Shown: positions 13,174 to 23,884 of the stretch, one piece after another
Layout: the number at the start of each line of letters is the position of its first letter
How positions within the stretch are numbered: the first letter of the stretch is position 1
Assembly: GCA_913057435.1 (NCBI GenBank)
Contig: CAJXNY010000035.1
Span: forward strand, 1 to 54,769
DNA from: an uncultured Oceanospirillaceae bacterium
GTDB lineage: Bacteria > Pseudomonadota > Gammaproteobacteria > Pseudomonadales > Balneatricaceae
Direction of reading: 5' to 3'
DNA: 54,769 nt
The notes under the pieces: generated by a model
What the model saw: only the letters and a program-made list of their open reading frames with translations
Database searches by the model: none
What the model was told of the DNA's origin: nothing
Position numbers and translations under genes: made by a program

Positions 13174-13289
13174 AAGCGCTGTGTTGTGGCCGTTCTGTCA
13201 ATGTGGGGTCATTAATATACCGCGTTGAGGGGGGCGGGGGAATTTGCCGGGTCTGATCACTGTTTTATGGCAACTTGATGATTAATTGT

Positions 13290-13329
13290 GCTTTATCAAT
13301 GAGGCTTCATTAATAAAGCCGGGTACAAT
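13290..13329 (+). promoter_or_regulatory. Inverted repeat and -10-like element before the first binding-protein gene
   Basis: Arms of 13 nt (13290-13302 and 13307-13319, one mismatch; GCTTTAT...ATAAAGC outermost) are followed at once by TACAAT (13324-13329). The repeat covers the place of the -35 element, so it looks like an operator or activator site. The remainder of the 256-nt gap (13174-13429) shows nothing else clear. Confidence 0.4.
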
Positions 13330-13429
13330 AGCGGCACTTAAATTTTCAGAGCTGAACAGCCACAAGCCGGTTCAGCAGGGAATGTCCTACAGGGCACCCT
13401 TTTCTTATTTTATTCAGGAGCTTATCCGC

Positions 13430-14536
13430 ATGCTGAAGAAGCGCTTTGCCGTGTTGGCGGTATCTATGGTTGTCAGCCTGGCTGGCCACGCTGGTGACAC
13501 ACTCAAAATTGGTATCGCAGGTCCGTTCAGTGGCCCGGTGTCACCTTACGGTCAGATGCAATTACAGGGTGCCTATGCTGCGATTGAGTCTATTAATCGG
13601 CAGGGTGGCATACAGGGCATGACCCTGGAAGCGGTGGAATATGATGACGGCTGTGAGCCGAAGCAGGCTGTGTCTGTTGCCAACCGCGTAGTGAACGACG
13701 GAGTACGGTATCTGGTGGGTCACCTGTGTTCCAGCTCGACACAGCCAGCAACGGATATCTACAAAGATGAAAACGTGCTGGTGATCACCGGCTCGACCAA
13801 CCCAGGCATTACCAGCCGCGGTTATCCGCTGATTTTCCGTACCATCGGGCTTGACTCTGAACAGGGTGAAACCGCTGCACGATACATTGTTGAGCAGGTT
13901 AAACCGCAACGCGTTGCAATTATTCATGATAAACAGCAATACGGTAAGGGTATTGCGATGATTGTGAAGCAGCAGCTGCAGGCGGCTGGCACTGATATTG
14001 TCACTGTGGATGGCATTAGCAGTGGCGAGAAAGACTTTTCGGCCTTGATCAGCAAGCTTAAACGTGAGCGTGTTGATTTTGTTTACTACGGTGGTTATCA
14101 CCCGGAACTGGCGTTACTGATGCGTCAGGGTAAGGCGCTGGAGTTTAGCCCGACATACATGGGGCCAGAGGGGCTGGGTAATAAAGATATTGCCTTCCTT
14201 GCCGGTGACGCAGTGGAGGGATTACTGGTGACATTGCCTACCCGCTATGATCTGTTACCACGTAATCAGGCGGTGGTTGATCAGCTAAAAGCCAAAGGCG
14301 TTGACCCCAGTGGTCCTTTTATCTGGACCAGTTATGCTGCCGTTGAAGCGTTGGCCAGTGTCATTAAGCAGGTAGGGGCTGACGACCCTGCTCGAGTTGC
14401 TCAGGCGATGCGTGATGCCACGATCGACACGGCTATCGGCCCGCTGAGCTGGGATACGCATGGCGATCTGAACGGCTTTCCGTTTGGCGTGTATCGCTGG
14501 CATCAGGATGGTACAGGTACGCCCGTCGCACACTGA
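13430..14536 (+). CDS. Branched-chain amino acid-type ABC substrate-binding protein (copy 1)
   Basis: A 368-residue periplasmic binding protein of the LivJ/LivK family. The signal peptide covers ~1-23 (cleavage near GHAGD). The mature start DTLKIGIAGPFSGPVSPYG is typical, followed by the type I two-lobe fold with C65 and C90 (DDGCEPKQ, HLCSSSTQP) probably forming the family's disulfide. ATG at 13430 with an AGGAG-like site fits; the longer frame upstream lacks a signal peptide. The next gene is a close paralogue, but no LivHMGF permease or ATPase genes lie nearby, so it must work with a transporter encoded elsewhere. Ligand is probably Leu/Ile/Val or a related amino acid, by family. Confidence 0.9.
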   Translation: MLKKRFAVLAVSMVVSLAGHAGDTLKIGIAGPFSGPVSPYGQMQLQGAYAAIESINRQGGIQGMTLEAVEYDDGCEPKQAVSVANRVVNDGVRYLVGHLCSSSTQPATDIYKDENVLVITGSTNPGITSRGYPLIFRTIGLDSEQGETAARYIVEQVKPQRVAIIHDKQQYGKGIAMIVKQQLQAAGTDIVTVDGISSGEKDFSALISKLKRERVDFVYYGGYHPELALLMRQGKALEFSPTYMGPEGLGNKDIAFLAGDAVEGLLVTLPTRYDLLPRNQAVVDQLKAKGVDPSGPFIWTSYAAVEALASVIKQVGADDPARVAQAMRDATIDTAIGPLSWDTHGDLNGFPFGVYRWHQDGTGTPVAH

Positions 14537-14802: not shown

Positions 14803-15909
14803 ATGACGTTCACAAAAAAAACATTTGCAACGCTTGCGCTCTCGATGGCTGTCAGCATGGCTTCCCACGCCGCTGATACTCTTAAAATTGGTATTGCTGG
14901 CCCAATGACCGGAACCGTATCCCAGTATGGTGATATGCAGTTTCAGGGTGCGCACGCGGCGATTGATCTGATCAATAAAGCAGGCGGTGTTAATGGCAAG
15001 ATGATTGAAGCGATCGAGTATGACGATGTCTGTGACCCAAAACAGGCGGTCGCAGTGGCGAACAAAGTTGTTAATGATGGCGTGAAATATGTCGTCGGCC
15101 ATCTTTGTTCCAGCTCCACTCAACCGGCGACTGATATCTATGAAGAAGAGGGCGTACTGGCGGTAACCTGCTCGACTAACCCCTCTATTACCGCCCGTGG
15201 CTATGAAATGATCTTCCGTACCATCGGCCTGGACTCTGATCAGGGACCAACGGCGGCACGTTATGTGATTGATAATATCAAGCCGAAGCGGGTTGCGATC
15301 ATTCATGATAAACAGCAGTACGGCGAAGGCATTGCGATGTCGGTGCGCGAAACCCTGTCCGCAGCAGGTATTGAAGCGATTGTGACCGAAGGGGTGACGG
15401 CCGGTGATAAAGACTTCTCCTCTCTGATTACCAAGCTGAAACGCGAAAACATTGATTTTGTTTATTACGGTGGCTATCACCCTGAACTGGGACTGATTAT
15501 GCGCCAGTCCCATGCGACCGGCTTTAAGCCAACGTTTATGGGGCCTGAGGCTGTGGGTAATAAAGAGGTGTCATCGATTGGCGGTGACGCTTCAGAAGGA
15601 CTACTGGTGACTCTGCCTGCTCGCTATGACCTGCTACCCAAAAACAAAGCGGTGGTTGAACTGATGAGATCCAGAAAGCAGGATCCGACCGGACCCTTTG
15701 TCTGGACCAGTGTTGCTGCAGTACAGGCGATGGTGAACGTGATGAAACAGGTTGGTACTGACGATGCCGTAGCCATCGCTGATGGTTTGCGTGGTAAAAC
15801 CCTGGATACTGCGATGGGACCGCTGACCTGGGACCAGAAAGGTGACCTGGTTGGTTTTGAGTTTGGCATTTATCAGTGGCATGCCGACGGGACGGGCACA
15901 CCGCTGTAA
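14803..15909 (+). CDS. Branched-chain amino acid-type ABC substrate-binding protein (copy 2)
   Basis: A 368-residue paralogue of the upstream protein, the same length and colinear throughout. Shared blocks include VGHLCSSSTQPATDIY, AIIHDKQQYG and VDFVYYGGYHPEL (IDFVYYGGYHPEL here). The signal peptide ends near SHAAD. Differences lie in the pocket-facing regions, for example ITGSTNPG in copy 1 against VTCSTNPS here. This adds a third cysteine and hints at a different ligand preference. RBS AGGA lies 8 nt upstream of ATG. The 266-nt gap between the copies has no clear terminator or promoter. A strong terminator follows. Tandem duplication is visible; the ligands are not. Confidence 0.9.
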   Translation: MTFTKKTFATLALSMAVSMASHAADTLKIGIAGPMTGTVSQYGDMQFQGAHAAIDLINKAGGVNGKMIEAIEYDDVCDPKQAVAVANKVVNDGVKYVVGHLCSSSTQPATDIYEEEGVLAVTCSTNPSITARGYEMIFRTIGLDSDQGPTAARYVIDNIKPKRVAIIHDKQQYGEGIAMSVRETLSAAGIEAIVTEGVTAGDKDFSSLITKLKRENIDFVYYGGYHPELGLIMRQSHATGFKPTFMGPEAVGNKEVSSIGGDASEGLLVTLPARYDLLPKNKAVVELMRSRKQDPTGPFVWTSVAAVQAMVNVMKQVGTDDAVAIADGLRGKTLDTAMGPLTWDQKGDLVGFEFGIYQWHADGTGTPL

Positions 15910-19594: not shown

Positions 19595-22500
19595 TCAGGC
19601 GGTTTCAACAACGTCAATGCCTGCCTTTTCCATCAACTGTTCTACGGTGCCTGGCCTGGCCAGTAGAAAGCCTTGTAGCTCATCACAGCCTGCGTTGCGT
19701 AAAAATTCCTGCTGCGCCTGCGTCTCGACCCCTTCAGCAACAACGTTTAATCGCAGGCTGTGGGACATCTGGATAATGGCCTGAACCAGCACCACATCAT
19801 CATCGTCATCGGGAACATCACGGACAAAGGACTGATCTATCTTGACGGTGCTGACTGGCAGCTTTTTCAAGTAGATCAGTGATGAGTAGCCGGTACCGAA
19901 ATCATCCACGGATAGTGAAATGTCCATTGCCCGTATCAGATCCAGGGTATGGATGACCTCATCAATGTTTTCCATCACATGGGTTTCCGTGATCTCCAGC
20001 TCCAGCAGGTGGGGATCCAGCTTTGATTCGTTCAGTGCTTGCTCAAGGTCGAGCAGCAGACGCGCATCGCGCAGCTGGCGCGGAGATAGATTCACGGAGA
20101 CGGGAATTTGTGCACCGGACTGATTCCAGTGGGCCGCTGCCAGACAGGCCTGTTTGAGTACGAAACGACCGATGTCGACGATCAGGGTAGAGTCTTCCGC
20201 AATCGGTATGAACACTGCCGGGGATACCGGGCCCTGCCCTGCTGGGTGCCAGCGCAGCAATGCTTCTGCGCCGACAACCCGTTCGCCGTCAATATCAAAC
20301 CGGGGTTGAAAGTTGAGGAACAGTTCCTCTTTTCCCAGTGCGGCACGCAGGCCTTCCTCCAGCAGATTACGCTGCTGGTTCTGTGCGTTAAGGTTTTCAT
20401 CAAAAAACTGGACGATATTGCGCCCACGTTCTTTCGCCTGGTACATAGCCAGATCGGCATGACGGGTCAGAGTCTCGGTATCTTTACCATCTTTATCGAC
20501 AATGGCGATGCCGATGCTGGTTGATGTGAAGCAGCGAATACTGCCCAGGTCATAAGGCTCGCGTACTGAACTGAGAATGCGTTGGGCTATAGATTTCAGC
20601 TGCCCCAGGTTTTGGATATCACGCACAATAATGGTGAACTCATCTCCGCCCAGTCGGGCGACAGTATCCTTGGCTCCCACGCTGGCGTGTAAGCGGTTAG
20701 CGACCTGCTGTAGCAGCGCATCGCCCGTATTATGGCCATAGGTATCGTTAATGCTTTTAAAGCGGTCCAGATCCAGGAACATGACCGCCGAGTTCCAGTG
20801 GTCACGATTACGTGGTGCTTCAATGCATTGCTCCAGTCGCTGATAAAACAGTGACCGGTTCGGTAACCCTGTCAGGTTGTCGTACAGCGCCATACGTTCC
20901 AGCCGCACTTCAGCGGCTTTAAGCTCGGTGATATTAGTAAACAACAACACAAAACGTGGTTCCATGGCGGGGCTAAGCAGCGGTGTTATGGACACCAGTA
21001 CAGGGACTGACTCGCCATTGCGGTGCTTGAGTACACACTCACCTTGCCAGCGGCTGTTGCTTGCGAAGGCTTCCAGGCTGTCAGGGTGGCTTTGTAAAAA
21101 TACCTTGATAGCGTCATGGCCCTGGGTAAGGGTCTGGCCACTAATCTCAGTGAAGGCCCGGTTGATGGTCAGAATCATCTGCCCGGCATCCAGCACTACA
21201 ATCGCTTCGGCAGTTTCTTCAAATACCTGCTGTGCCAGTTTCAGTTCGCCTTCCGCCTGCTTCATTGCGGTGATGTCGGTCGCAATACCGCCAATGGCGT
21301 AGGGGGTGCCCAGCTCATCAACAATGGGGAACTTACTCATCAGCAAGGTTATCTGACCACTGGGGATGGACATTTTCAGCTCATAGCTCAGTGGTTTTCC
21401 GGTACTGAGTATCTGCTCATCGGCAGCGCTGACAACCTCCATAACGCCGTTGTCCAGTACCTGATGATCGACCTGGCCAATCAGTTGCTCTGGTGTCTGG
21501 CCAATAACATCAGCCATCCGCTGGTTCACCAGCCGGTAACGGTGGGCTATATCTTTGATAAAGATCAGATCGGGTGAATTGTCGATAATACTGGCAAGCC
21601 GCTGATCACGATCCTGAATCCGTAGCAACATGAGTTCAAGTGCATGGCCGACACGGTCAAATTCAGTAAACTTTGCGCCAGAAAATGAGGCTGGAACGCC
21701 GCTTTCGGGCACTTGTTCTGCATAGTTTATCAGCTGAGCCAATGAGCGGTGAGTCAGACGGTAGATCACCCAGATTGCCAGCAGTCCAAAGACGATAACA
21801 GCAATCGCCGCGTGAATCAGGGTGCGAAAATAGGTGTCTTTGAGTGCTATAAATGCACTGTTGGGTAACAGCATTCGGATACTGAACGATTCAGACGCAT
21901 CAATTTTCAGGGAGTGGTCGCGTAATATAAATTCTTTGTGCGCCTCTACCATATTGGCAATCGTGGTGGGCTGGCGGAGTTGTGCCAGTTCGCCTGGGTT
22001 GCGTTCCAGCCCGCCAATCATGATGTTTTGGTAGCTTAGCGAGATCGCATTTGAGCCGAATAGCTGTTGTAGCTGATTCATAAGCCAATAATTATTGTTT
22101 AGCATGACATAGGTGTTCAGCTGGCCGACTACTTCGCCAAGTTCAGGCTCGACGATCGGTAATACAAGCCTCATCAGATAATGGTCTTCATTGCCAGATT
22201 GTTCATGGATGCTATGCCAGCGACCTGAAGTCTGGGGGCGTCGGCTGATATTGTTCAGTGGCAGGGCCAGGTTGACGATGCCGGTGTTACGTACCTCGAC
22301 CAGTTCACCTGAAGTACGGGTTATTACGACGGCGTCAATGCGTTGGCCGCTGTCACCGTCGAGCAGGGAGTCAACGATGTTACGTATGCCAATGTGGTCG
22401 TTACGATCCAGTGCGCTACTGAGTTCATTTACCTCGATCAGTTCATGGCTTATCTGGTAGATATTGCTGAACTGCTCACCCAGTAAGCTGAGCAGAGTGC

Positions 22501-22648
22501 GCTGATCGCGGTGGTAAGTTTGTACAATTTCCTGTTGCAGAGCCCGCTGTGCTGCGAGATACGCTGAACTTAGCAGTATGGCGGAGACCACGCTCAGTAA
22601 TATCAGTACCAGTACCATTAATACGGTGGAAAAACGGATAGTACGCAC
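19595..22648 (-). CDS. LuxQ-like sensor with PAS-PAS-GGDEF-EAL output
   Basis: A 1017-residue inner-membrane signalling protein. TM1 lies at ~7-30, a periplasmic region at ~31-276, and TM2 at ~277-298. Then come a linker (~300-350), PAS regions (~351-465 and ~472-580), GGDEF (~588-750) and EAL (~760-1010). The periplasmic part resembles V. harveyi LuxQ from memory (LPIVEPELGEVVGQ, then LNNNYWLM at ~163-190). GGDEF at 667-671 is intact but the RxxD inhibitory site is not (GAKD). EAL motifs are complete: EALLRW, NLSPRQ, ELEITE, DDFGTGYSS, KIDQSF, EGVET. It may therefore make and break c-di-GMP. The start is GTG at 22648, directly after the luxP-like stop. No kinase or receiver domain is present. 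Confidence 0.9.
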   Translation of the reverse strand: MRTIRFSTVLMVLVLILLSVVSAILLSSAYLAAQRALQQEIVQTYHRDQRTLLSLLGEQFSNIYQISHELIEVNELSSALDRNDHIGIRNIVDSLLDGDSGQRIDAVVITRTSGELVEVRNTGIVNLALPLNNISRRPQTSGRWHSIHEQSGNEDHYLMRLVLPIVEPELGEVVGQLNTYVMLNNNYWLMNQLQQLFGSNAISLSYQNIMIGGLERNPGELAQLRQPTTIANMVEAHKEFILRDHSLKIDASESFSIRMLLPNSAFIALKDTYFRTLIHAAIAVIVFGLLAIWVIYRLTHRSLAQLINYAEQVPESGVPASFSGAKFTEFDRVGHALELMLLRIQDRDQRLASIIDNSPDLIFIKDIAHRYRLVNQRMADVIGQTPEQLIGQVDHQVLDNGVMEVVSAADEQILSTGKPLSYELKMSIPSGQITLLMSKFPIVDELGTPYAIGGIATDITAMKQAEGELKLAQQVFEETAEAIVVLDAGQMILTINRAFTEISGQTLTQGHDAIKVFLQSHPDSLEAFASNSRWQGECVLKHRNGESVPVLVSITPLLSPAMEPRFVLLFTNITELKAAEVRLERMALYDNLTGLPNRSLFYQRLEQCIEAPRNRDHWNSAVMFLDLDRFKSINDTYGHNTGDALLQQVANRLHASVGAKDTVARLGGDEFTIIVRDIQNLGQLKSIAQRILSSVREPYDLGSIRCFTSTSIGIAIVDKDGKDTETLTRHADLAMYQAKERGRNIVQFFDENLNAQNQQRNLLEEGLRAALGKEELFLNFQPRFDIDGERVVGAEALLRWHPAGQGPVSPAVFIPIAEDSTLIVDIGRFVLKQACLAAAHWNQSGAQIPVSVNLSPRQLRDARLLLDLEQALNESKLDPHLLELEITETHVMENIDEVIHTLDLIRAMDISLSVDDFGTGYSSLIYLKKLPVSTVKIDQSFVRDVPDDDDDVVLVQAIIQMSHSLRLNVVAEGVETQAQQEFLRNAGCDELQGFLLARPGTVEQLMEKAGIDVVETA

Positions 22649-23785
22649 TTAGTGGGTATCCTTATCCTTATCCAGATCGCTAAGCCGGAAGGCTTCCCTG
22701 GTTAACTGGCGAATATCAGTGGCTGAAGTCTGATTGTGCAGTAGTTTTATATGACCGGCGAATATATGCGGCACAGCGGAGGGTTTACCTTCAATGTCCA
22801 GTTTGATGGCCTCAGCCATAGCGACGCCGTTATCGTCGTTCATACGCATAACCGTGACATTCAGCCCGCCTGCCTGCAAAGCTTCCAGCTCACTGCTACC
22901 ACCGCCCCAGCCATTGAGCAGTATCTTGTCTTCCAGGTTTTGCTCTTTCAGGGCCTGCAAGGCACCGAGCGCTATATCGGTTGAATTGGCGTAGATCATA
23001 TTAATCTGAGGGTGTTTTCTCAGGGCGCGTATCGTCGCTTTATAAGCTTTGTCGCGGTTGCCATTGGTAAAGTACTGAGCCACCTGGCGAACACCTGGGT
23101 AACGGGCAGCTTCATTGGCAAAGGTATCGCCGCGCATTTTGCTGATGTATCCGGGGGAAAAATACAGCATCAGGTAATTCGCCTGATAGTTAGTCTTTTT
23201 CAGCATCCAGTCTGCTAGTAGTCGCGTGCCCTGGGCGTGGTCGAAACCAACGTATAAGAAAGGCCGGTGCGATTGCCAGTCTGCCAGTGGGGTCGTGATG
23301 TTCTGCAGAATGAGTTTGGGTGTACCTTTTGCCAGTACCTGCTCAATCAGTCGACGTTGGCGCACGGTTTCCAGGGTAAATACCAGGTAATCCGGTTGCC
23401 ACTTTAGTGCTTCATTTAATTGCTGGCTTTGCAATGGTGCATCAATAGAGGGGCGAGAGAGGAAGGTTTTAAGCTCATATTGCAGGCCTGTATTCTTAAG
23501 GCGATGTTCAAATGAAGTCAGGCTGCGGTGCCAGTAGTCTGAGCTTTGTAGTCCCGGGTAGATGATCGCTATTTTGGCTGGGCGTTGCTGGGCAGACTCA
23601 AGCGGGCTTGCAGGCTGATGGACCTTGCGCGAGAAGTCTTCCATTAGTGGGGTCTGTGCAGGATTTTGAGCGATATAGTCCTGTATACGGATATATTCTT
23701 CAGCCGCGGAAGCAACCGGTGTATGGAGCCAGAACAAAGCCAGTACCAAGTGGGCTATGTAGCGGTGGAAACGCGCATCCATCAT
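22649..23785 (-). CDS. luxP: LuxP-like periplasmic autoinducer-2 binding protein
   Basis: A 378-residue periplasmic protein with a signal peptide (~8-27, cleavage near ASAAE). It aligns along its length with V. harveyi LuxP: YPGLQSSDYW, LILQNITTP, LYVGFDHAQG, YFSPGYISKMRGDTF, ANSTDIALGA, NGWGGGS, VMRMNDD. Residues equivalent to the reported AI-2 contacts are all kept: Q80, S82, W85, N162, R218, S268, T269, D270, W293, R314 (Vibrio Q77, S79, W82, N159, R215, S265, T266, D267, W289, R310). The start at 23785 has GGGAGGT 5 nt upstream. The stop abuts the GTG of the GGDEF/EAL gene, so the pair is co-translated. AI-2 binding is inferred from the residues; the gene symbol is by homology. Confidence 0.92.
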   Translation of the reverse strand: MMDARFHRYIAHLVLALFWLHTPVASAAEEYIRIQDYIAQNPAQTPLMEDFSRKVHQPASPLESAQQRPAKIAIIYPGLQSSDYWHRSLTSFEHRLKNTGLQYELKTFLSRPSIDAPLQSQQLNEALKWQPDYLVFTLETVRQRRLIEQVLAKGTPKLILQNITTPLADWQSHRPFLYVGFDHAQGTRLLADWMLKKTNYQANYLMLYFSPGYISKMRGDTFANEAARYPGVRQVAQYFTNGNRDKAYKATIRALRKHPQINMIYANSTDIALGALQALKEQNLEDKILLNGWGGGSSELEALQAGGLNVTVMRMNDDNGVAMAEAIKLDIEGKPSAVPHIFAGHIKLLHNQTSATDIRQLTREAFRLSDLDKDKDTH

Positions 23786-23854: not shown

Positions 23855-23884
23855 CATGTTGATCTGTCATCACCAACATGTTGG
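23855..23884. promoter_or_regulatory. Overlapping CATGTTG/CAACATG palindromes upstream of luxP-like gene
   Basis: CATGTTG (23855) and CAACATG (23874) are inverted with a 12-nt spacer. The second half-site is itself the left part of a perfect 12-bp palindrome, CCAACATGTTGG (23873-23884). They lie 70-100 nt before the luxP-like start and look like a dimeric regulator site. The remainder of the 462-nt gap to fabV (23786-24247) has no clear promoter. A 48-codon open frame at 23968-24114 lacks an RBS and was not called. Confidence 0.45.

Follow-up and report, generated by a model that had tools for sequence, protein, structure and literature searches.

A LuxP-like gene abutting a LuxQ-like GGDEF-EAL gene suggests a direct link from AI-2 to c-di-GMP in an Oceanospirillaceae bacterium

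RESULTS

A luxP-like gene is joined to a gene for a LuxQ-like GGDEF-EAL protein

We describe a gene pair in an uncultured marine Oceanospirillaceae bacterium that likely encodes a LuxP-type AI-2 receptor acting directly on a c-di-GMP enzyme. The gene order, the homology of both input parts, the pocket residues, the intact catalytic motifs, the presence of luxS in the genome and the recurrence of the pair are observed; the ligand, the complex, the signal transfer and its direction are inferred. The pair lies on the minus strand of the window, the whole 54,769-nucleotide stretch of DNA analyzed here, in which an Rfam search gave no match. The luxP-like gene (22649–23785), encoding a predicted periplasmic AI-2 binding protein of 378 amino acids, is followed in the same frame and with a gap of 0 bp by the partner gene (19595–22648), encoding a LuxQ-like sensor of 1017 amino acids with a c-di-GMP output. 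The luxP-like open reading frame ends with TAA, and the GTG start of the partner is the very next base, as an earlier note on this DNA had described. The same stop-then-GTG join is found in four relatives (L003–L006), and this recurrence supports the GTG start of the partner. An in-frame ATG farther upstream, at 23857, is also possible as the start of the luxP-like gene.

In a phmmer search, residues 31–370 of the luxP-like protein matched the Vibrio harveyi LuxP structures 4yp9, 1zhh and 1jx6. Four LuxP sequences were retrieved at E = 1e-96 to 1.4e-96, and the next best match was a sugar-binding protein at 4.1e-12. An E value of 1e-96 over residues 31–370 shows that the similarity to LuxP is not due to chance, and the identity to Vibrio campbellii LuxP is 46% over 352 amino acids. 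Ten AI-2 pocket residues of Vibrio LuxP are listed in the portion of the source available to us (PMC8301110), and all ten are identical in the window protein; nine were placed by spacing, and the last arginine by motif, its number being off by one from that listed. At the position of the pocket serine, nine relatives carry A and nine carry T. On these sequence grounds, and with no binding data, we infer that the protein is an AI-2 receptor with AI-2 as its ligand.

The partner protein carries a LuxQ-type periplasmic domain

The Pfam family LuxQ-periplasm (PF09308) matches residues 35–254 of the 1017-residue partner (21887–22546, minus strand; residue numbering of the partner domains leaves out the start codon) between two membrane helices, with E = 8.5e-14 and a score of 52.1 bits (cut-off 25.7). 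The motifs LPIVEPELGEVVGQ and LNNNYWLM, in which a resemblance to LuxQ had previously been noticed, are both present and fall within this match. In addition, the profile of the partner's periplasmic family retrieved three different sequences from the PDB with E ≤ 0.1; each of them is LuxQ and the best has E = 7.5e-33, which argues against chance similarity. An AlphaFold2 model of the domain reached a mean pLDDT of 90.0, and its top six Foldseek matches are all LuxQ. The likeness is thus borne out by Pfam, the PDB profile search and structure comparison, which rule out a mere pattern match by eye, and the absence of LuxQ similarity that would have refuted the proposal was not encountered. The NCBIfam model of Vibrio LuxQ aligns with approximately residues 4–376 only and scores 109.9 bits, far below its cut-off of 1200, which is what a protein resembling LuxQ in its input half alone would give.

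A fused LuxP–partner model was also predicted by AlphaFold2 from an alignment that left out LuxP-only rows, giving a pTM of 0.70 and a mean pLDDT of 84.2. This prediction suggests that the two proteins form a complex, but does not show it; with no control, no coordinates and no PAE, the interface is not shown. In a fold search with the fused model, the best 50 rows were LuxP and other binding proteins, with no LuxQ chain among them.

The pair recurs, and its input is probably AI-2

The survey of luxP genes beside GGDEF/EAL genes that the earlier note had proposed was carried out on the best 80 of 97 LuxP loci found. An adjacent partner is present in 67 of these 80 loci, with a histidine kinase output in 35, GGDEF plus EAL in 25, GGDEF only in one, SpoIIE in one and no output domain in five. 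PF09308 was detected at E ≤ 0.001 in 65 of the 67 adjacent partners (32/33 plus 33/34), and all 67 match the profile iterated from the window periplasmic region. Adjacency of LuxP and a LuxQ-periplasm protein spans four phyla, whatever the output, and a search of three further genomes of the genus found the same pair in each. The window pair is therefore a member of a recurrent family, and both the locus survey and the genus genomes rule out a one-off.

Along the LuxP tree, the c-di-GMP label switches three times or more. When placed among 27 paralogues from the host and from alphaproteobacteria, the LuxP-linked GGDEF-EAL modules group at three separate positions, and the starred branches require two changes or more, but a one-clade topology for these modules was not rejected (p-AU 0.073).

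Since LuxP belongs to a sugar-binding superfamily, a different small ligand (a sugar, a borate-diol or an AI-2 analogue) is possible, in which case the pair would sense nutrients or the environment, with c-di-GMP as its output, and would not be a quorum-sensing system. Among genomes with the GGDEF+EAL type, luxS is present in 11 of 14 gammaproteobacterial and 0 of 11 alphaproteobacterial ones, so that self-made AI-2 cannot be the input in 14 of the 25. In addition, a LuxQ-GGDEF-EAL protein of the same kind stands with a TctC-type binding protein in place of LuxP in three relatives, so AI-2 is not the fixed input of the sensor part. On the other side, the pocket that is identical at 10/10 positions in the window protein is kept whole in 22 of 27 c-di-GMP-type LuxPs, compared with a median column conservation of 0.5 in the LuxP alignment; the window genome has luxS in one copy (E = 9.3e-56); and bacteria without luxS are able to listen to the AI-2 of others, as the luxS-less alphaproteobacteria look to be doing. 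We therefore regard another ligand as unlikely, and AI-2 remains our preferred input. The luxS match also excludes a genome without a source of AI-2.

The output is a GGDEF-EAL module without a kinase domain

A Pfam scan confirmed the order PAS-PAS-GGDEF-EAL after the periplasmic region. All on the minus strand, the first PAS domain (PF08448) covers residues 356–462 (21263–21583), the second (PF13426) residues 482–575 (20924–21205), the GGDEF diguanylate cyclase domain (PF00990, E = 1.1e-50) lies at 20417–20890 and the EAL c-di-GMP phosphodiesterase domain (PF00563, E = 5.2e-68) at 19652–20350. The same scan found no HisKA, HATPase or receiver domain in the partner; therefore, no phosphorelay step is encoded in the pair. 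Together with the LuxQ-type input, this supports the previous proposal of a LuxPQ sensor joined to a c-di-GMP output that skips the phosphorelay, in which AI-2 binding, the complex and a change in c-di-GMP are inferred.

In the motif table, the GGDEF motif and the EAL catalytic motifs EALLR, DDFGTG and EGVET are intact in the window partner, from which enzyme activity is inferred, and the GGDEF domain has no RxxD, which we take to be the inhibitory site of such domains. The two catalytic domains could instead function chiefly in binding c-di-GMP or contacting proteins, with AI-2 acting through another cyclase touched by the partner rather than through the partner's own enzymatic activity. The host does have many GGDEF-EAL relatives, and the GGDEF motif is degenerate in 2 of 25 GGDEF+EAL partners (L009 and L010, Oceanospirillum), but it is intact in the other 23 and in the window, where the EAL motifs are intact as well, as they are in 25 of 25 partners; we hold this explanation to be very improbable. 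With at least 28 GGDEF-EAL-like regions in the genome, the window protein may nevertheless contribute only slightly to the c-di-GMP pool.

The host genome encodes a second LuxP

A second luxP, 39% identical to the first, lies beside a histidine kinase gene in the same genome. The periplasmic region of this kinase is LuxQ-like but diverged: the window-derived profile detected it at E = 5e-12 (nominal 100,000 sequences), whereas PF09308 gave no match in it. The window partner is thus not the sole LuxQ-like protein of the genome, which had been the first impression from the LuxQ-periplasm search. With this pair present, the organism is not necessarily without a kinase route, and the second pair could be the main AI-2 sensor of the genome. 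That the window adjacency is meaningless, with LuxP serving a histidine kinase from another locus while the GGDEF-EAL protein senses something on its own, can practically be dismissed despite this second pair, given that the second kinase already has an adjacent luxP of its own and that LuxQ-periplasm occurs in nearly all adjacent partners across phyla and outputs.

DISCUSSION

Our analysis indicates that this organism probably regulates c-di-GMP through cell-density sensing in a single step. In the mechanism we propose, AI-2 from the cell's own LuxS and from neighbors would enter the periplasm and be held by the LuxP-like protein, which would be seated on the double-PAS-fold LuxQ-type periplasmic domain of the partner. 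Closure of LuxP on its ligand may alter how the partner dimer packs, a change that would travel via the membrane helices and the two PAS domains to GGDEF-EAL, shifting the balance between c-di-GMP synthesis and breakdown. AI-2 may lower c-di-GMP, which would favor motility or dispersal at high density; this direction is a guess by analogy with LuxQ, whose kinase is switched off by AI-2, and with ScrB-ScrC, in which the signal favors the phosphodiesterase.

The window pair resembles Vibrio LuxP-LuxQ in that its LuxP homologue has identical pocket residues, its periplasmic domain is of LuxQ type in both sequence and fold, and its genes are adjacent. By comparison, LuxQ is a hybrid histidine kinase, whereas the window output is PAS-PAS-GGDEF-EAL, with no HisKA, HATPase or receiver domain. 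Other known systems are compared here from the available portions of the cited sources. In the ScrA-ScrB-ScrC system of Vibrio parahaemolyticus, a periplasmic protein binds a quorum-like signal and governs a GGDEF-EAL membrane protein of dual function (PMC10269520); as in the window pair, a periplasmic binding protein reports to a GGDEF-EAL protein, but the input is 'Signal S', which ScrA makes. NspS-MbaA of Vibrio cholerae likewise pairs a binding protein with a c-di-GMP-metabolizing membrane receptor, with the polyamine norspermidine as input (PMC9578409). Neither of these two likenesses comes from sequence comparison. Receptors for AI-2 in which dCACHE or GAPES1 domains sit on cyclases, such as rpHK1S-Z16 of R. 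palustris and YeaJ of Salmonella (PMC7584622, PMC12834153, PMC12268683), likewise need no phosphorelay for AI-2 to act on a c-di-GMP enzyme, but the membrane protein itself binds AI-2, with no LuxP. In Burkholderia RpfR (PAS-GGDEF-EAL), the quorum signal BDSF, a fatty acid, is sensed directly by the GGDEF-EAL protein, with no binding protein (PMC13220807). The earlier note knew of no characterized system of this exact form. The general idea is known from ScrB-ScrC (PMC10269520), and direct links between AI-2 and c-di-GMP from other proteins (PMC7584622, PMC12834153).

For the family as a whole, we consider it likely, with somewhat less assurance than for the pair itself, that LuxP and the LuxQ periplasmic domain form an exchangeable input cartridge. 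Evolution would have attached this cartridge to c-di-GMP enzymes on several occasions, to a lone GGDEF domain and to a SpoIIE phosphatase on one occasion apiece among our loci, and also to histidine kinases. On the same reading, luxS-less marine alphaproteobacteria would use the c-di-GMP form for listening to the AI-2 of other species, the sensor would be able to swap its binding protein for one of TctC type, and AI-2 would set c-di-GMP in one step via LuxP outside Vibrio.

If true, LuxP would be a general AI-2 reader able to set a second messenger directly, and not only an input to the Vibrio phosphorelay. The family would provide a natural series, with the same input and different outputs, for studying how a LuxP-bound periplasmic domain signals through the membrane, and alphaproteobacteria without luxS would offer specific examples for asking whether marine cells eavesdrop on AI-2. 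It would then be possible to test, in harmless marine bacteria such as relatives of Marinobacterium, Halomonas, Stappia and Labrenzia, whether cell density is coupled in one step to biofilm formation, motility or dispersal.

Gene pair and domain architecture

The luxP-like gene (22649–23785, minus strand; a 378-aa ORF) ends in TAA and is followed, with zero bases in between, by the GTG start of the LuxQ-like sensor gene (19595–22648, minus strand; a 1017-aa ORF). The gapless stop-then-GTG join claimed in the earlier note is thus present, and it is common to the window and four relatives (L003–L006). Pfam orders the second protein as LuxQ-periplasm (E=8.5e-14; 52.1 bits against a cut-off of 25.7), PAS_4, PAS_9, GGDEF (E=1.1e-50) and EAL (E=5.2e-68), in agreement with the PAS-PAS-GGDEF-EAL arrangement proposed to follow the periplasmic region. 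The motif table lists no RxxD, the inhibitory motif, in the window GGDEF. Elsewhere in the window, two similar ORFs lie in tandem (13286–14536 and 14803–15909), which, judged by sequence alone, resemble branched-chain amino-acid binding proteins.

The predicted AI-2 pocket of the LuxP-like receptor

Among PDB sequences, the window LuxP matches four LuxPs by phmmer (E=1e-96 to 1.4e-96), the next match being a sugar-binding protein (E=4.1e-12), and it is 46% identical to V. campbellii LuxP across 352 aa. Ten AI-2 pocket residues are listed after 1ZHH in one source (PMC8301110); neither the window LuxP nor the second LuxP of its genome differs at any of them, nine being mapped by spacing and the last arginine by motif, as its listed number is off by one. 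Across 82 LuxPs (80 surveyed loci plus two of the window genome), Y84, W85, N162, R218, T269, W293 and R314 (window numbering) are invariant, Q80 and S82 are conserved in 80, and S268 is retained in 64 (A in nine, T in nine), against a median column conservation of 0.5. The complete set is retained in 61/82 LuxPs overall and in 22/27 of the c-di-GMP type.

The LuxQ-type periplasmic domain and a possible complex with LuxP

The proposed LuxQ likeness of the periplasmic region was upheld by the Pfam match and by a profile built from 64 periplasmic regions, whose only PDB hits at E≤0.1 were three distinct LuxQ sequences (E=7.5e-33, 6.5e-27 and 1.5e-22). The AlphaFold2 model of residues 1–309 (mean pLDDT 90.0, pTM 0.80) has only LuxQ periplasmic chains as its top six Foldseek matches (E 3.7e-11 to 4.9e-10; TM by target 0.76–0.82; identity 15–16%), and dCACHE-type domains rank after them, from E=2.4e-07.

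Because both genes share one frame, LuxP and the first 309 residues of its partner could be modelled as a single chain, with the natural stop read as Q. In this fused model (mean pLDDT 84.2, pTM 0.70), the sole run with pLDDT <50 is residues 342–364, around the join. The predicted LuxP half resembles AI-2-bound 1jx6 (TM by target 0.96) more closely than apo 1zhh_A (0.84), which may reflect method bias. Since the model lacks a mismatched control, PAE and coordinates, it offers no more than a hint of a LuxP–partner complex.

Distribution of LuxP partners and their outputs

With each species represented by one genome, a pattern scan gave 97 LuxP-encoding loci, of which the best 80, biased towards the window's LuxP, were surveyed. 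A partner, defined as a close-by downstream same-strand ORF of ≥250 aa, is present at 67 of these 80 and missing at 13; in at least four of the latter (L048, L064, L068 and L074) the sequence stops right after luxP. These 67 and 13 loci span Pseudomonadota, Thermodesulfobacteriota, Campylobacterota and Bdellovibrionota. PF09308, the LuxQ-periplasm family, is found at E≤0.001 in 65/67 partners (32/33 plus 33/34), and all 67 match a profile obtained by iteration from the periplasmic region of the window protein.

Within this best-80 set, 35 partners carry HisKA+HATPase and 25 carry GGDEF+EAL (14 in Gammaproteobacteria, 11 in Alphaproteobacteria), as the survey suggested in the earlier note had sought. 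The catalytic EAL motifs are intact in 25/25 of the latter and the GGDEF motif in 23, both exceptions being Oceanospirillum (L009 and L010). Rarer outputs are a lone GGDEF in Sulfurospirillum (L081, 7011–8861) and a SpoIIE phosphatase joined to LuxQ-periplasm in a Desulfococcaceae bacterium (L023, 7170–9404). Five of the 67 have no output domain: L054 lies at a contig end, and the L014, L026, L034 and L071 partners stop after periplasmic or PAS domains, with no GGDEF-EAL found elsewhere within these four loci. A luxP without an adjoining sensor gene occurs at L018, L029, L035, L052, L077, L078 (Motilimonas) and L013 (Halomonas smyrnensis), each of two Motilimonas genomes having two such copies.

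PF09308 occurs in 17/57 relatives, own genome counted. Among 18 non-window PF09308 loci, nine hold luxP and GGDEF-EAL in one stretch, including all three other searched genomes of the window's genus; another six show luxP with no GGDEF-EAL within range, and the remaining three GGDEF-EAL but no luxP.

Exchange of output and of binding protein

The c-di-GMP label requires three changes on the LuxP tree, with 82 rows or with 85 after adding Vibrio, all forced by well-supported branches, and five on the periplasmic-domain tree (71 rows, three of them TctC-type), three being forced; the direction of change is not readable from the trees. Set among 27 paralogues, which are the top 30 of 65 matches in three genomes minus three LuxP-linked ones, the LuxP-linked GGDEF-EAL modules form three groups: 13 Oceanospirillaceae/Halomonas, two Aeromonadaceae and 11 Alphaproteobacteria. 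A single clade of these modules is not rejected (p-AU 0.073). The window module's best match in both alphaproteobacterial genomes is the LuxP-linked copy, by a narrow margin in one, which counts against separate capture of GGDEF-EAL.

In three relatives a gene for a TctC-type binding protein, not luxP, precedes a gene for a LuxQ-periplasm, PAS, GGDEF and EAL protein (L099, 320–1285 and 1381–3654, PF03401 4.7e-32; L101, 307–1284 and 1342–3504, 2.6e-28; L093, 2273–3214 and 1–2271, minus strand, by resemblance only); thus, both the output and the binding protein of the LuxQ-type sensor are exchangeable. On a Roseicitreum antarcticum plasmid, an lsr-like operon encodes a 33% identical LuxP-like protein (L108, 4959–6095) alongside ABC transporter parts, a monooxygenase, an aldolase and lsrK, annotated as an autoinducer-2 kinase; here a LuxP relative belongs to an uptake system.

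Distribution of luxS

luxS was found in 32/76 genomes searched (25/50 plus 7/26; L041 and L043 not included, L077 and L078 in genomes already counted). GGDEF+EAL-type genomes have it in 11/25, namely 11/14 Gammaproteobacteria and 0/11 Alphaproteobacteria, the gammaproteobacterial genomes without a match being L005 (a MAG) and the two Oceanospirillum (L009 and L010). Only 10/33 kinase-type genomes carry luxS, so its absence is not peculiar to the c-di-GMP form. The luxS-less genomes are compatible either with sensing of AI-2 made by other species or with a different ligand.

Relation to known systems

In the available portions of the sources, LuxP is stated to occur in Vibrio only (PMC7584622, PMC11796354) and is listed in Desulfovibrio (PMC8586430, PMC5187520); one source describes it as a transport component and counts 267 LuxP receptors, three tested for AI-2 binding (PMC12268683). 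LuxQ-periplasm is tabulated in 115 proteins, 112 kinases and one c-di-GMP protein (PMC4822843, Table 1), so one case had already been counted, unnamed in the part available. No description of LuxP with a GGDEF/EAL partner was found among the open PMC papers examined after full-text searches; subscription papers are mostly outside this coverage. As far as the accessible text goes, ScrB–ScrC (PMC10269520) and NspS–MbaA (PMC9578409) provide mechanistic precedents. The joining of a LuxPQ-type sensor to a c-di-GMP output, inferred previously, is well supported as anatomy; as mechanism, AI-2–LuxP control of c-di-GMP through the partner is likely, though unproven. The pair places a known input on a known output, a combination found to recur on both sides.

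The organism's genome (4.76 Mb across 77 contigs) contains luxS (contig C22, E=9.3e-56), and PF09308 matches the window protein alone. A second LuxP (contig C2, 186519–187553; 39% identical to the window LuxP) is sister to three Vibrio LuxPs (97/90), on a long branch whose placement is unsure. Its gene is followed by one whose 609-aa product carries HATPase_c (E=4.4e-11) and HisKA_3 (24.1 bits against a cut-off of 24) and matches the periplasmic profile in its N-terminal region (E=5e-12, nominal 100,000 sequences). Just after this pair lies a 144-aa GGDEF ORF (L085, 10876–11310; PF00990 E=9.1e-32, motif SGEEF). With a second luxP beside a histidine kinase, the organism therefore probably has two LuxP inputs, of which one feeds a kinase and the other c-di-GMP.
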